A stretch of 37,038 nt of DNA, from the NCBI GenBank assembly GCA_027065825.1, contig JAMONM010000059.1:1-37038 (forward strand), in the 5' to 3' direction. Within the stretch, counting starts at the first letter, position 1; the number at the start of each line of letters is the position of its first letter. A model generated the notes under the pieces. It worked only from the letters and a program-made list of their open reading frames with translations. It was not told where the DNA came from and searched no databases. A program made the translations under genes and the position numbers. Shown piece by piece: positions 26,012 to 31,742 of the stretch. Origin of the DNA: Campylobacterales bacterium. GTDB taxonomy: Bacteria; Campylobacterota; Campylobacteria; Campylobacterales; Nitratiruptoraceae.

Positions 26012-26338
26012 ATGCCCATGATTAAAAAAATGTTTCTCTGGGGTAAAAAGGGCGTATTGGCCCTTTTGTTAGTCAGTTTCGCATTTTTCGTCGTTCACGA
26101 TTACGTTTTCGAGTATATCGACTCATGTCCTACTCAAAACGTATGCGAGAGATCGTGCGACATAAAGCAGCAAGACGGCGTATGCCAGCTACATGCCGAA
26201 ATTCACCATTCTCTTTTCATACTCCAAACTGCCGATTACAGCTGTGAAAGCATAAAATCGGATACTATCTTGCACAGCGATTCCGTGCACCCGTTTTTCG
26301 TCCCCGATTCTATATTCCATCCTCCTGCGCTCTCATAA
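26012..26338 (+). CDS. small Cys/His-rich membrane-anchored protein, first gene of the efflux operon
   Basis: A 108-residue protein I do not recognise. One membrane helix (about residues 13-28) after a Lys-rich start suggests an inside N-terminus and a periplasmic C-terminal part. That part holds five cysteines (39, 45, 49, 58, 78) and seven histidines in the whole protein (29, 61, 65, 66, 88, 93, 103), which suggests metal binding or disulfides. It lies 67 bases before an RND metal-efflux operon and shares its orientation. A role as metal chaperone or sensor for the pump is inference. Two in-frame ATGs (26012, 26018) are possible starts. Confidence 0.65.
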   Translation: MPMIKKMFLWGKKGVLALLLVSFAFFVVHDYVFEYIDSCPTQNVCERSCDIKQQDGVCQLHAEIHHSLFILQTADYSCESIKSDTILHSDSVHPFFVPDSIFHPPALS

Positions 26339-26405
26339 CTTTTTATCATCCACTATACATTAAACCCTAAAATATAAAACTATAAAAAATATAAAGGAAA
26401 AAGTT

Positions 26406-27605
26406 ATGAGAGCGATCGCAATATTTTTAACTCTATCTATCACGTTATCGACTCTTTTTGCACAGACGTTAAACGATCTGATAAAAGAGGCCTTAAAACA
26501 CCATCCGGACCTGCAACAAATAGAGATACAAAAAAGAGCTCTAAAAGCCAGGGCTCAGAGCGCTATAACAACCGATCCCGCCGAACTGCAATTGGGAGGT
26601 GGTTACGCCCTCGACAACGACTCCAGCGGCGGAAAAGAGTTTTTTGCCGGTATCTCTAAAGAGTTTTTTACCCCCGCTGTCAAACGAGCTCTGCAAGAGA
26701 GTTCCGAGCTTCTATTTAAATCTGAGCTTCTTAGGCTAGAAAGCCGATTATTAGAGAGTATATATACGATAGAATACCTCTATTTCGATAGCTGTTTACA
26801 AAAGAAAAAGCTGCTGTTAAAAGAGAAACTCTACGAAGAGTTCAACCGTTTTGCCCGGAAAATGCGAAGAGCTCAAGAACTGGGCGAAATCTCAAAAAAG
26901 GATCTTATAACCATTGAGTCCGAGTTGGCAAAAGACGAATTGGAGCTCAAACTTCAAAAAAGCTCCTACAGAGCCTCATTGATATCTTTGCAAAGAGAGC
27001 TGTACAGACCTAAACCTATCGGTGAACTCTCCTGTAGCGAGGATTTTGAAACCTTCAAAATAGAGCTTAACGAAAAGTCCGCGGTGAAAAGATCGCTGAA
27101 CATAAAATCGAAAGAGCTAAAAATCAAAGCTCTAAAAAGAGCTTTGAAAAAGTTCGACGCTCTATTTGACAGATACACTCTCTCGGCCGAATATTCGGAC
27201 GAATTCGGAACTACGAGATACGGCGGCTATATTTCGCTACCTCTATATTCCCTCTCGAAAAAAAAAGAGCTGGAAAAAAAGATTTTAATGGAGCAGATAT
27301 CGCTGGAGACGCTAAATATGCATGCCCAAAAACTAAAAACCGAAAATATGATAAAAGAGTTAAAAGAGATACTTCATACTATCCACGACTCGATAGCTCT
27401 ATATAAAGAGCTTGAAAAAGAGAAAAGTCGCCTGGTTCAGATGGTTCAACGCAGCTACCTCAGCGGAGAAAGCTCCGTAACCGAGCTCATCAGCGCCAAA
27501 AAGGAGCGCGTGTATATCTATCTAAAAACGATAGATCTACAGCAAGAATATCTAAAAAGGCTGTTCGATATGTATAAAACAGCGTCCATCAAGGAGATAA
27601 GATGA
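26406..27605 (+). CDS. TolC-family outer-membrane efflux protein (CusC/CzcC-like)
   Basis: Outer-membrane channel of a tripartite pump, 399 residues. A signal peptide is MRAIAIFLTLSITLSTLFA, cleaved before QT. The rest is mostly long amphipathic helices with heptad-like charged repeats, as in the two-fold TolC repeat (NDLIKEALKHHPDL near the start; the second repeat is near residues 210-390). It is shorter than E. coli TolC (about 470 mature), as usual for CusC/CzcC relatives in this group. An AAAGGAAAAAG ribosome site precedes it and the stop overlaps the adaptor gene as ATGA. Confidence 0.88.
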   Translation: MRAIAIFLTLSITLSTLFAQTLNDLIKEALKHHPDLQQIEIQKRALKARAQSAITTDPAELQLGGGYALDNDSSGGKEFFAGISKEFFTPAVKRALQESSELLFKSELLRLESRLLESIYTIEYLYFDSCLQKKKLLLKEKLYEEFNRFARKMRRAQELGEISKKDLITIESELAKDELELKLQKSSYRASLISLQRELYRPKPIGELSCSEDFETFKIELNEKSAVKRSLNIKSKELKIKALKRALKKFDALFDRYTLSAEYSDEFGTTRYGGYISLPLYSLSKKKELEKKILMEQISLETLNMHAQKLKTENMIKELKEILHTIHDSIALYKELEKEKSRLVQMVQRSYLSGESSVTELISAKKERVYIYLKTIDLQQEYLKRLFDMYKTASIKEIR

Positions 27606-28678
27606 AAAAAACGTTACTGGCTTTAATTACTGTGTGCGCTCTTTTTGGAGCGGAACCGATAGTTTTGAGCAAACAGCAGATATTAAACTGGCAGATAAAA
27701 ACGGCTAAACCCCAAATAGCGCACAAACTGCCTCTTGGCAACTTCATGATGGAGGTTAAGGCTCCGGCTTCGATGTATAGAACCGTTTCGCTCCCTTTTG
27801 AGGCTTCGATAGTTAAAATTTACGTAAATAGATACGACAAGGTCTCCCGGGGAGCCGCCCTTTTTCAGGTAACCTCGAAGGAACTGATCGAAAGGCAAAA
27901 CGAACTGGCAGCTCTCGGCATAGAGCTTTCGAGTCTAAAAATCGAAAACGAAAGAAAAGGTAGGCTCTGCGCCGAAGGCATCATTGCTCAAAAGGAGTGC
28001 ATATACTCTCAAACCAGACTCAAGACGCTGCTTGGCAAAATAGAAAAAACCAGATCATTGCTGAGACTCTACTCTCTCGATAAGGATATGATCAAAAACG
28101 TAGAATCGGGGAAAAAGATCTACAGATATCTTACCGTTCGTTCGCCTATAGAGGCGGTTGTCGCGGATCTGCATCTGCATTCAGGATCGGTCGCGGAAGT
28201 TTCGAAACCTATTGTTACGCTCCTTTCCACCGATAAGAAAATTCTAGACGCCATGATTCCGGTAGAGAGAGCCAAAACCCTAAAACCAAAAACCGAAGTT
28301 GCCCTAGAATTGGGCGAAACCTATTACGCCGCGAGCGTCAAAAACGTTGCGCAGATAGTACAAAGCACAAATCAAACCCAAAAGGTCCGATTCGAAATAA
28401 AAGAGAGACTCGATCTACCGGTAGGATACAGAACCGAAGGAAGAGTATATATCTTTAAAGAGAGTCTAAAAGTACCGAAAATAGCCGCCATCTTTTATGA
28501 CAAGAACTACTATCTGTTCAAAAGAGGCAAAAAAGGTTTTATTCCAATAAAGATCGACATTCTATCTGATAGCGAAAACTTTTTCTATATACCCAAAGAG
28601 ACCCTGCAAAAGAGCGACGAAATAGTGGTAGAAGGTTCTATGGTACTAAAAGGAATGATGGAGCAAAGCGATGATTGA
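27602..28678 (+). CDS. periplasmic adaptor of an RND metal pump (CusB/CzcB-like)
   Basis: Membrane-fusion protein of 358 residues that links the inner-membrane pump to the outer-membrane channel. A signal peptide is at MKKTLLALITVCALFGA, cleaved before EP. A barrel-sandwich (lipoyl-like) half with FEASIVKIYVNRYDKVSRGA is followed by a helical hairpin (about 95-155) containing two cysteines (GRLCAEGIIAQKEC), the second lipoyl half (VRSPIEAVVADLHLHSGSVAE), a beta-barrel and a membrane-proximal domain. The N-terminal methionine cluster of E. coli CusB is not obvious; FMMEV and scattered Met are all that is visible. Overlaps the pump gene by 8 bases. Confidence 0.9.
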   Translation: MKKTLLALITVCALFGAEPIVLSKQQILNWQIKTAKPQIAHKLPLGNFMMEVKAPASMYRTVSLPFEASIVKIYVNRYDKVSRGAALFQVTSKELIERQNELAALGIELSSLKIENERKGRLCAEGIIAQKECIYSQTRLKTLLGKIEKTRSLLRLYSLDKDMIKNVESGKKIYRYLTVRSPIEAVVADLHLHSGSVAEVSKPIVTLLSTDKKILDAMIPVERAKTLKPKTEVALELGETYYAASVKNVAQIVQSTNQTQKVRFEIKERLDLPVGYRTEGRVYIFKESLKVPKIAAIFYDKNYYLFKRGKKGFIPIKIDILSDSENFFYIPKETLQKSDEIVVEGSMVLKGMMEQSDD

Positions 28679-31600
28679 CGCCATAATTAAATTCTCGCTA
28701 TCCCAAAGACTGTTTGTTATGCTTTTGGCTCTGGTAATATTGGGATTCGGTATAAAATCCTACAAAGAGCTTCCTATAGACGCGTTTCCGGACATTTCGC
28801 CCACTCAGGTAAAGATTATCATGAAAGCCAGCGGAATGACCCCCAGCGAAGTGGAATCCAGAATAACCACGCCGATAGAGCTGGCGATGCTGGGAATCCC
28901 CCACCAAACCATCGTAAGATCTATATCCAAATACGGTCTTTGCGATATAACGATAGATTTTGAAGAGGGAACTGATATATACTGGGCCAGGCAGCAAGTC
29001 AGCGAAAGACTAACCGCCATAAAAGACGAACTGCCCAAAAACGCCGAAGGCGGTATGGCGCCAATCAGTACGCCTTTGAGCGATATTTTGATGTTTACGA
29101 TAGAATCGGACTCTCTCTCCCTGATTGAAAAAAGAACTATTCTGGACTGGATTATAGCGCCAAAAATCAGGAGCATAAACGGCGTAGCGGAAGTAAACTC
29201 CCTGGGAGGTTTCGTCAAAACCTATCAAATAACGCCGAACCTATCTAAAATGCAGGCTCTGGGAGTAACTATGGAGGATATCCGCCTCGCTCTACAGAAC
29301 AACAATCAAAACGACGGGGCGGGCAGGATCAGCGTAGGACCGGAGAGTTTTTACGTACGTAGCGTAGGACGGATAAAAAACATTGAAGATATAGAGATTC
29401 GCGCCGTAAAAAACGTAGACTCCAAGGTTATCAGAATAAAAGACGTAGCCACCGTAGGTATCGGACACCTAACCAGAGCCGGTTTCGTAACAAAAGACGG
29501 TATATCAGAAGCGGTCGAGGGTATAGTTTTGTCGCTAAAAGGAGCCAACGCGGCAAAAGTTATAACCCAGGTAAAAGAGGAGCTCTCACAGCTTGAAAAA
29601 TCTCTTCCGCCCGGCACGAAAATAAAACTGCTCTACGATAGAAGCGAACTGGTGGATATCGCCACCTATACGGTTAAAAAGGCGCTCATCGAGGCCGTAA
29701 TTCTGATCATAGTCATACTGCTGCTTATGTTGGGGAATATCGCTTCGGCCGTATCCGTGGCTCTAATACTGCCTTTTGCCCTGCTTATGAGTTTTATCGC
29801 TATGAAAATGTTCGGTCTCAGCGCCAATTTGATGAGTCTGGGAGGTTTGGCAATAGCTGTGGGAATGCTGGTGGATTCGGCCGTCGTTATGGTTGAACAC
29901 ATAACCGCCGAACTGGGCAACAAAAGACATAAAAGATGCTCTAAAATGGAGATAATACTACGTGCCGCAAAAGAGGTAGCCCCCTCTATAGTGACAGGAG
30001 TGTTAATTATAATTATAGTATTTATGCCTCTGTTGACTCTCGAGGGGCTCGAAGGCAAACTCTTCAAACCCGTGGCTCTGAGTATAGTTTTTGCGCTTTT
30101 TAGCTCGCTGTTGCTGGCGCTGACGCTGATTCCCGTTATTAGCTATATGCTTTTGAAAATCAGACCCGATAAAGAGTCTTTCGTTATGAGGGTTCTTTTA
30201 AAAATTTACAAACCTACGCTGATGTGGGCGATCAAGCGTCAGTGGGTTGTGGTTGCGATAGCTCTGACGCTGATGGGAGCTGCCGGATATATGTTTACCA
30301 AAGTGGGAAAAACATTTATGCCTACCATGGATGAGGGCAGCATAATAATCGGAATAGAGAAAAACCCCTCCATCAGCCTGGAAGAGAGTCGCGAAATGGA
30401 TCTAAAAATTCAGCAAAAAATTCTAAAAGAGGTTCCCGAGGTCCTCTCGATCGTAGCTAGAACCGGAACGGACGAACTTGGACTGGACCCGATGGGTCTA
30501 AACGACACGGATACATTTTTGGTTCTAAAACCGAAAAACGAGTGGAGAAAACCGGACAAAGAGTGGCTGATCAACGAACTTAGAAAAGTTTTGGAACAGT
30601 TTCCCGGTATTGAATACAGTTTTACCCAGCCGATAGAGATGAGGGTTTCGGAGATGTTAACCGGCGTCAGAGGCGATCTGGCGGTTAAAATATACGGTAG
30701 CGACCAGAACAGGCTCAACGAACTGGGCAAACAGATAAAAGATATCATTGAACAGGTACCCGGCAGCAGCGACGTTTACAAAAAAGCCAACGAAGGCTTT
30801 GAGTACCTCGAACTGGTATTCAATCACGAAGCGCTCGGAAGATACGGATTGAGCGAGTCGGATATAGCTGACTATCTAAAAACTCTGGTAGACGGAGTTA
30901 AAATCGGCATTGTTCAGGAAGGGTTAAAGAGGTTCGACCTGGTCATTAAAGGCGATAGCGAATACCAAAAATCCATAGAGTCTCTCAAGAGCCTAAACTA
31001 TGTATTGAACGACGGAACGGTCATAGCTTTGGAGAGACTCGTAACCTTTAGGCAAAGCGGAGGACCCGTTCAGATAGAGCATGAAAAAGGATTAAGAAAA
31101 ACCGTCGTTCAAAGCAACGTGGAGGGGCGTGATCTGGTAGGATTTGTGGACGACGTAAAAAAAGCTATACAACGAGAAATAAAACTGCCTCCAGGATACT
31201 TTATCGAATACGGCGGCGAATTCGAAAACCAGCAAAGAGCGGCCAAAAGATTGATGATTATCGTGCCGATTTCCATATTTATGATATTCGTGCTGCTATT
31301 TATATCTTTCAACTCTTTGACTCAGGCCCTGCTGGTACTGGTCAATATTCCTCTTGCTCTGGTAGGCGGAATAGCGGGACTGTACTTTACCGGCGAATAT
31401 CTATCCGTTCCAGCCTCAGTGGGTTTTATAGCCCTTTTGGGAATTGCCATTCTAAACGGCGTGGTGATGGTTAACTATTTCAATCAACTGGTACTTAACG
31501 GCCTGAGCGTAAAAGAGGCTGTTATAACCGGAGCGGCCAGAAGACTCAGACCGGTTTTGATGACGGCTCTAATAGCCGCTTTGGGGCTTTTGCCTCTAAT

Positions 31601-31742
31601 GTTCGCAACTGGCCCAGGATCCGAAATACAAAGGCCCCTGGCTATCGTGGTCATCTACGGATTGGCCAGCTCAACACTGCTGACGCTGGTAGTTTTACCC
31701 ATTTTATATCTGAGATTTATCAAGGATCTCAACAATAGATAG
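28671..31742 (+). CDS. heavy-metal efflux RND pump (CzcA/CusA family)
   Basis: Inner-membrane proton-driven pump of 1023 residues with the duplicated six-helix plus periplasmic-porter layout. N-terminal helix ends in ELPIDAFPDISPTQVKI, typical of the heavy-metal (HME) branch. Helix 4 carries AVGMLVDSAVVMVEH, with the proton-relay Asp near residue 402. The porter domain has MRVSEMLTGVRGD. Compared with E. coli CusA, only one of the three copper-binding methionines has an approximate counterpart (EMLTG), and the third is Leu (RYGLSESD), so a divalent metal such as Zn, Co, Ni or Cd is as likely as Cu/Ag. It ends next to a strong hairpin. Confidence 0.92.
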   Translation: MIDAIIKFSLSQRLFVMLLALVILGFGIKSYKELPIDAFPDISPTQVKIIMKASGMTPSEVESRITTPIELAMLGIPHQTIVRSISKYGLCDITIDFEEGTDIYWARQQVSERLTAIKDELPKNAEGGMAPISTPLSDILMFTIESDSLSLIEKRTILDWIIAPKIRSINGVAEVNSLGGFVKTYQITPNLSKMQALGVTMEDIRLALQNNNQNDGAGRISVGPESFYVRSVGRIKNIEDIEIRAVKNVDSKVIRIKDVATVGIGHLTRAGFVTKDGISEAVEGIVLSLKGANAAKVITQVKEELSQLEKSLPPGTKIKLLYDRSELVDIATYTVKKALIEAVILIIVILLLMLGNIASAVSVALILPFALLMSFIAMKMFGLSANLMSLGGLAIAVGMLVDSAVVMVEHITAELGNKRHKRCSKMEIILRAAKEVAPSIVTGVLIIIIVFMPLLTLEGLEGKLFKPVALSIVFALFSSLLLALTLIPVISYMLLKIRPDKESFVMRVLLKIYKPTLMWAIKRQWVVVAIALTLMGAAGYMFTKVGKTFMPTMDEGSIIIGIEKNPSISLEESREMDLKIQQKILKEVPEVLSIVARTGTDELGLDPMGLNDTDTFLVLKPKNEWRKPDKEWLINELRKVLEQFPGIEYSFTQPIEMRVSEMLTGVRGDLAVKIYGSDQNRLNELGKQIKDIIEQVPGSSDVYKKANEGFEYLELVFNHEALGRYGLSESDIADYLKTLVDGVKIGIVQEGLKRFDLVIKGDSEYQKSIESLKSLNYVLNDGTVIALERLVTFRQSGGPVQIEHEKGLRKTVVQSNVEGRDLVGFVDDVKKAIQREIKLPPGYFIEYGGEFENQQRAAKRLMIIVPISIFMIFVLLFISFNSLTQALLVLVNIPLALVGGIAGLYFTGEYLSVPASVGFIALLGIAILNGVVMVNYFNQLVLNGLSVKEAVITGAARRLRPVLMTALIAALGLLPLMFATGPGSEIQRPLAIVVIYGLASSTLLTLVVLPILYLRFIKDLNNR

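Follow-up and report, generated by a model that had tools for sequence, protein, structure and literature searches.

A small protein encoded ahead of an RND efflux operon as a candidate nascent-chain metal sensor in Campylobacterota

We analysed a stretch of 37,038 nucleotides from a member of the Nitratiruptoraceae (below, the window), in which a small ORF directly precedes an operon for a heavy-metal efflux system of the RND type. Our analysis suggests, with a probability of roughly 0.7, that this ORF is a cis-acting leader similar in type to CutF and CruR: metal on the exported nascent chain would modulate a ribosomal pause at a C-terminal Pro-Pro motif and in that way open an RNA stem over the start of the next gene. 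The small gene ahead of the pump would thus probably be a switch that reads itself and not a metal carrier.

Results

The leader ORF and its operon

The features of the leader ORF and of the operon that follows it are:

26012..26338, plus strand: ORF of the leader (108 aa), a candidate metal sensor acting as a nascent chain (ORF reading, relatives)
26051..26119, plus strand: codons for the hydrophobic stretch near the N-terminus, about residues 14-36, which includes the invariant His29 (sequence, family alignment)
26183..26206, plus strand: CxxHxxxH codons (Cys58, His61 and His65), a candidate metal site (family motif)
26318..26326, plus strand: codons of His103-Pro104-Pro105, proposed pause site (Pro-Pro in 70 of 70 members)
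26406..27605, plus strand: outer-membrane efflux protein (OEP, PF02321), the tolC-type gene (Pfam match)
27602..28678, plus strand: periplasmic adaptor of the HlyD_D23/CusB type (Pfam and NCBIfam matches)
28671..31742, plus strand: RND heavy-metal pump (TIGR00914, CusA/CzcA family; Pfam and NCBIfam matches, CusA alignment)

The leader ORF spans from the ATG at 26012 to the TAA at 26338 and encodes MPMIKKMFLWGKKGVLALLLVSFAFFVVHDYVFEYIDSCPTQNVCERSCDIKQQDGVCQLHAEIHHSLFILQTADYSCESIKSDTILHSDSVHPFFVPDSIFHPPALS, a protein in which a single hydrophobic stretch near the N-terminus (about residues 14-36) is followed by a tail with five Cys (39, 45, 49, 58 and 78). The protein has seven His (29, 61, 65, 66, 88, 93 and 103) and no Met-rich motif. 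Because relatives at 40-46% identity keep the reading frame ahead of the same operon, the ORF to which an earlier note on this DNA had drawn attention is confirmed, on comparative grounds, as a real gene. Its start codon is uncertain: the relatives align from about Met7, and there is no clear Shine-Dalgarno sequence ahead of Met1. Pfam and NCBIfam scans of the leader protein and 29 relatives gave no significant family match and, as judged from these scans, the leader belongs to a protein family that is absent from current family libraries. An AlphaFold model, made with one relative in the alignment, had a mean pLDDT of 47.5 and no confident fold, which hardly bears on whether the protein is a metal carrier.

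Between the stop codon of the leader and the start of the tolC-type gene lies a gap of 67 nt, in which we found no intrinsic terminator, and the sole forward match in a promoter scan of the locus was no better than chance. TM4 of the pump resembles that of CusA (SLGGLAIAVG..VD..VVMVE). Gly561, Asp612 and Glu661 of the pump align to M573, M623 and M672 of CusA, respectively, which we take to be the three copper-binding Met residues of that pump. Because Gly, Asp and Glu align to this Met triad, copper is not supported as the substrate. Part of the leader family, moreover, carries His without Cys; copper has no better claim than zinc, cobalt, nickel or cadmium to be the metal.

Relatives of the leader in Campylobacterota

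Named genomes yielded a single relative, encoded by a Nitratiruptor sp. MAG (44% identity; locus L001). Within the Nitratiruptoraceae, the family of the window's own genome, leader matches occur in 9 of 22 genomes and fall into two groups: clade A leaders precede the same pump type as in the window, and clade B leaders precede a second RND operon. The N-terminus is clearly hydrophobic; by eye, that of clade A resembles an uncleaved anchor, and that of clade B ends in cleavable-looking sites of the HA/SHA type. The window's genome has one leader of each clade; its second leader-headed RND operon is at G000:C93:1-7431 (L025), with the leader MKRRSVTLLVLLSLFFNIAHAG...TKPPATLV.

A profile built from clade A and clade B leaders (A3; cut-off E<=0.01) matched 66 of 397 Campylobacterota genomes, about 60 of them strongly. 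We examined 70 family members together with their surroundings and took as representatives those below 60% identity (n=43). The next large gene after the leader encodes an OEP in 42 of the 43 representatives, and the family stands ahead of efflux operons across Campylobacterota, where the earlier note had advised a search. All 70 members are at most 767 nt from a large ORF, and some lie 300-500 nt from the OEP gene with another small gene between them.

The remaining representative precedes a gene for a P-type ATPase: the L066 leader (796858-797157, minus strand, contig 1 of G278) is followed by an ORF of 629-636 aa that matches P-type (E1-E2) ATPases, a hint that other metal exporters, too, may be under this switch. 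In many operons a further small gene, also conserved (about 98-117 aa, e.g. MKTILMSFLLAIVSFAKVEHYEIHKYNQKPSIRIQ...; L019, L021, L057, L064, L065, L066, L069, L072, L074, L080 and L085), lies between leader and OEP, and where it is present its start is the one that adjoins the leader. In a check by position only, the operons of G003 and G005, which have pumps close to that of the window, and of G409, none of which gave a family match in our genome searches, have a small ORF immediately ahead of the OEP gene, and these ORFs all end in Pro-Pro (TPPPKL, TPPPRG and TPPKA, respectively).

Conserved features of the leader family

In all 70 members a Pro-Pro lies no more than five residues from the C-terminus; Lys, Arg or His stands before it in 67 of them, and in 49 exactly two residues come after it. 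A C-terminal Pro-Pro was found in none of 253 control proteins of at least 200 aa from the same loci and in none of 29 small ORFs with a membrane segment from elsewhere in related genomes. HxxxH is present in 65 of the 70 members and CxxHxxxH in 43. The gap from HxxxH to Pro-Pro is 37-39 residues in 36 of the 39 representatives in which it could be measured, and the sequence within it is poorly conserved. The Cys residues are more variable: their number ranges from 0 to 5, in seven of the 70 members the part beyond the membrane segment lacks Cys altogether, the nearest relatives share only C39, C45 and C58 with the window copy, and C49 and C78 are peculiar to it. The description of a small and new protein, anchored in the membrane or exported, that has a His/Cys motif and heads metal-efflux operons therefore holds for the family; in the conservation expected of its Cys and His residues, the His part is borne out by HxxxH, and the five Cys do not form a conserved set.

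These patterns bear on the function suggested in the earlier note, i.e. that the finished, membrane-anchored protein binds metal through its His and Cys residues in the periplasm and passes it to the adaptor or the pump. The position before the pump, the membrane anchor, the conserved His and the frequent presence of Cys are in line with such a carrier. However, the invariant part of the family is the C-terminal Pro-Pro beside the stop codon together with its spacing from HxxxH, the number of Cys varies as described, and an RNA stem (see below) links the end of the leader ORF to the next start. Neither CusF nor any other metal-chaperone family was matched in Pfam or NCBIfam, so that the protein is, as had been supposed, not CusF-like. 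Because a stable carrier needs no C-terminal Pro-Pro, fixed spacing or stem, whereas a regulator acting as a nascent chain does, the leader reading is favoured; capture and hand-over of metal find no support in what is invariant, and we regard the carrier as an improbable and weaker explanation.

An RNA stem between the leader and the tolC-type gene

The elements of the predicted stem are:

26328..26343, plus strand: 5' arm, comprising the last codons and stop codon of the leader and 5 nt beyond (RNA folding)
26349..26351, plus strand: UCC, paired with GGA in the Shine-Dalgarno sequence of the tolC-type gene (RNA folding)
26394..26398, plus strand: Shine-Dalgarno sequence of the tolC-type gene, AAGGA (sequence, RNA folding)
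26399..26414, plus strand: 3' arm, which holds the AUG (26406-26408) of the tolC-type gene (RNA folding)

Positions 26328-26343 are perfectly complementary to 26399-26414, giving a predicted stem of 16 bp with an MFE of -23.4 kcal/mol in the window (z=-5.1; 0 of 200 shuffles as good). The duplex scores -23.2 in the window and -20.3 in the genome's other copy, whereas the strongest among 61 control junctions reaches -16.5. In that other copy (L025) the stem between stop codon and Shine-Dalgarno region is almost perfect and pairs ACTCTCGTTTGACG with CGTCAAAGGAGAGT. An Rfam search matched no known RNA family.

Across the leader family, the arms of a locus pair better with each other than with swapped arms (z -5.6). 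Ordinary operon junctions in these genomes (L124-L143 and the window) also have locus-specific complementarity between the stop region and the next start, albeit weaker (z -3.5), which suggests that stem-based translational coupling is common in Campylobacterota, and part of the stem signal of the leader family is therefore generic coupling. With a fixed 36-nt arm, the pairing was significant when set against shuffles and against swaps. Because control operon junctions peaked too, if less strongly, we do not claim a specific stem for the whole family and instead compare leader junctions (n=41) with control junctions (n=51). In this comparison, the fraction of the Shine-Dalgarno sequence and start codon that is paired with the upstream 3' end is 0.45 for the leaders as against 0.23 for the controls (p=1.2e-6, with related loci and hence cases that are not independent), and it is above 0.5 in 49% of the leader junctions versus 12% of the controls. 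The stem is weak in some relatives including the clade members L016, L017 and L018. In two divergent operons (L144 and L145) the leader ends in PPP codons (CCCCCCCTCCC) that are complementary to the Shine-Dalgarno sequence AAGGAGGG before the OEP gene.

When Pro104 is in the P site, the ribosome would cover the mRNA to about 26336, at the usual toeprint distance. Blocking the mRNA up to this position changes the predicted fold from -24.6 to -4.9 kcal/mol and raises the predicted probability that the AUG is open from 0.00 to 0.55. A ribosome at the leader stop codon opens the predicted stem similarly; thus, the stem reports the presence of a ribosome, whose length of stay a pause would determine, and a metal-dependent pause is not demanded by these data alone. 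Translation of the leader might then open the stem without any sensing, or with sensing of export as in SecM, and tie synthesis of the pump to leader translation or Sec activity. The opening by a ribosome at the stop codon, the weaker complementarity at ordinary junctions and the possibility that Pro-Pro by itself pauses ribosomes all fit this explanation, which nevertheless leaves the conserved HxxxH, its fixed distance to Pro-Pro and the restriction to metal-efflux operons unexplained, and we therefore think it unlikely.

Comparison with known systems

A close parallel is CutF of Rhodobacter capsulatus, for which an exported chain with a copper motif, a C-terminal proline pause and a stem over the Shine-Dalgarno sequence are experimentally supported (PMC9973294). 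Like CutF, the leader protein is small and probably exported, is encoded by the first gene of a metal operon at a short distance from the second, carries a putative metal motif and a C-terminal Pro motif, and is followed by a stem that hides the Shine-Dalgarno sequence of the next gene. By the operational definition of CutF-like proteins (PMC9973294), the leader is one of them in size (108 aa), C-terminal Pro-Pro (104-105) and position (67 nt), and it shares the stem shielding the next ribosome-binding site that is a feature of the CutF mechanism, strongly in both genome copies and weakly in some members. The two differ in that the metal motif is CxxxC in CutF and CxxHxxxH or HxxxH, combined with a single [K/R/H]PP, in the leader; in that CutF precedes a multicopper oxidase and the leader a full RND efflux system; in that the leader stem, unlike that of CutF, also buries the AUG and overlaps the leader stop codon; and in phylum, the leader being from Campylobacterota. 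Many CutF-like proteins precede OEP/CusA genes (PMC9973294). As summarised in the CutF survey, such proteins occur mainly in Pseudomonadota and Bacteroidota with other phyla minor (PMC9973294), and in the literature we found no paper on such leaders in Campylobacterota, of which the survey's supplementary lists may hold a few.

In CruR of Bordetella pertussis (DUF2946, PF11162), CXXC and RAPP are 45 residues apart (PMC9426467), and arrest at two Pro codons has been shown in vitro (PMC12992588). CruR controls a TonB-dependent transporter via Rho-dependent termination across a 162-nt gap, and copper relieves the arrest (PMC9426467). CruR is exported, as the leader probably is, and both have a motif, for metal in CruR and putatively so in the leader, at a fixed distance from the C-terminal Pro-Pro (45 residues in CruR, 37-39 in the leader); the leader lacks the CXXC and RAPP of CruR and has CxxHxxxH and [K/R/H]PP instead. 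Membership in DUF2946 was rejected: PF11162 matched neither the leader protein nor the 29 relatives, had no match in the window's genome, and its matches across the phylum are at other loci. Proteins resembling DUF2946, with CxxC and a C-terminal RAPP, occur elsewhere in Campylobacterota (L120, L122 and L123, of which only L120 passes the PF11162 cut-off), so that both families coexist in the phylum; an hhalign comparison of the leader family with three DUF2946-like proteins of the phylum gave 44%, for the N-terminal part only.

CopL of Xanthomonas/Stenotrophomonas (NF033807) is likewise a cis-acting leader, before a copper-resistance gene (PMC9973294); the leader protein and its relatives score far below the cut-off of this model (E=0.027 for the best of 29 relatives), and the weak matches in Campylobacterota are at other loci. 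CrdA of the Helicobacter pylori CrdAB-CzcBA system is CopC/PcoC-like, Met-rich and free of His (PMC9182242). It is a small secreted protein from the same phylum and, like the leader, is encoded with a TolC/CzcB/CzcA-type system, in its case for copper resistance, but the leader, with seven His and no Met-rich motif, is different in architecture and is not CrdA. SecM, VemP, MifM and the RAPP arrest peptides resemble the leader in that a C-terminal stall in an exported leader, proposed in our case, opens a stem before the next gene. SecM, VemP and MifM sense protein export, whereas the neighbouring genes and the conserved His/Cys of the leader point to metal.

CzcI occupies the same place before czcCBA and has been suggested to be a metal-sensing regulator (PMC9973294), and by analogy the leader protein could be a stable periplasmic regulator of this kind that modulates a two-component system. 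Yet the leader has no sequence relation to CzcI (hhalign probability 1% with three sequences on the CzcI side; no CzcI model among the NCBIfam matches), CzcI is reported to have no C-terminal proline motif (PMC9973294) while the motif is invariant in the leader family, and no histidine kinase gene adjoining the operon was seen among the listed ORFs of the window. We consider this explanation highly improbable.

Discussion

Combining the family-wide features with the predicted fold and the precedents of CutF and CruR, we suggest a model in which the N-terminal segment brings the nascent chain to the membrane and begins its export, and in which the HxxxH/CxxH region would reach the periplasmic side about when the ribosome, 38 residues later, arrives at Pro-Pro. 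Metal on this region may then alter the length of a pause at Pro104-Pro105, three codons before the stop. The paused ribosome would cover the mRNA to about 26336 and remove the outer 5' arm of the 16-bp stem, which would otherwise bury the AUG and part of the Shine-Dalgarno sequence of the tolC-type gene. With the stem open the pump operon would be translated, and with no pause the stem would close and the pump would stay low. As to the direction of the response, we infer that metal prolongs the pause and raises pump synthesis, in the way that copper raises CutO via CutF. The opposite sign, with metal relieving the pause as it does in CruR, would mean less pump on exposure to metal, a less sensible arrangement for an exporter. 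What can be read from the genomes is the family with its invariant features, their spacing and its position, and the stem; pausing and metal binding in this model are, like the direction, our interpretation of them.

Several points count against the leader reading. The motif is [K/R/H]PP, whereas the proven motif is RAPP, and EF-P, the gene for which is present in the window's genome, could relieve a plain Pro-Pro pause. The weakness of the stem in some relatives, the generic part of its signal, its opening by a ribosome at the stop codon and the members at 300-500 nt from the OEP gene count in the same direction.

More tentatively, with somewhat less than even odds, we propose that the family as a whole consists of nascent-chain sensors of Campylobacterota that are separate in sequence from DUF2946, CutF and CopL, that switch RND efflux operons, that use a ruler of 38 residues to [K/R/H]PP, and that are convergent with CruR and CutF; HxxxH, which often comes without Cys, suggests that metals other than copper are read.

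Extracytoplasmic metal sensing by a ribosome-bound protein is known mainly from two worked-out cases, CutF and CruR, both from Pseudomonadota. There is a fair chance that the leader family is distinct from and convergent with these two. A family distributed across Campylobacterota would offer many natural variants for testing how a nascent chain reads metal, and it suggests translational control of RND metal pumps, whose control is commonly described at the level of transcription. It also advises caution with small Cys/His-rich proteins encoded ahead of pumps, which are not necessarily metal carriers.
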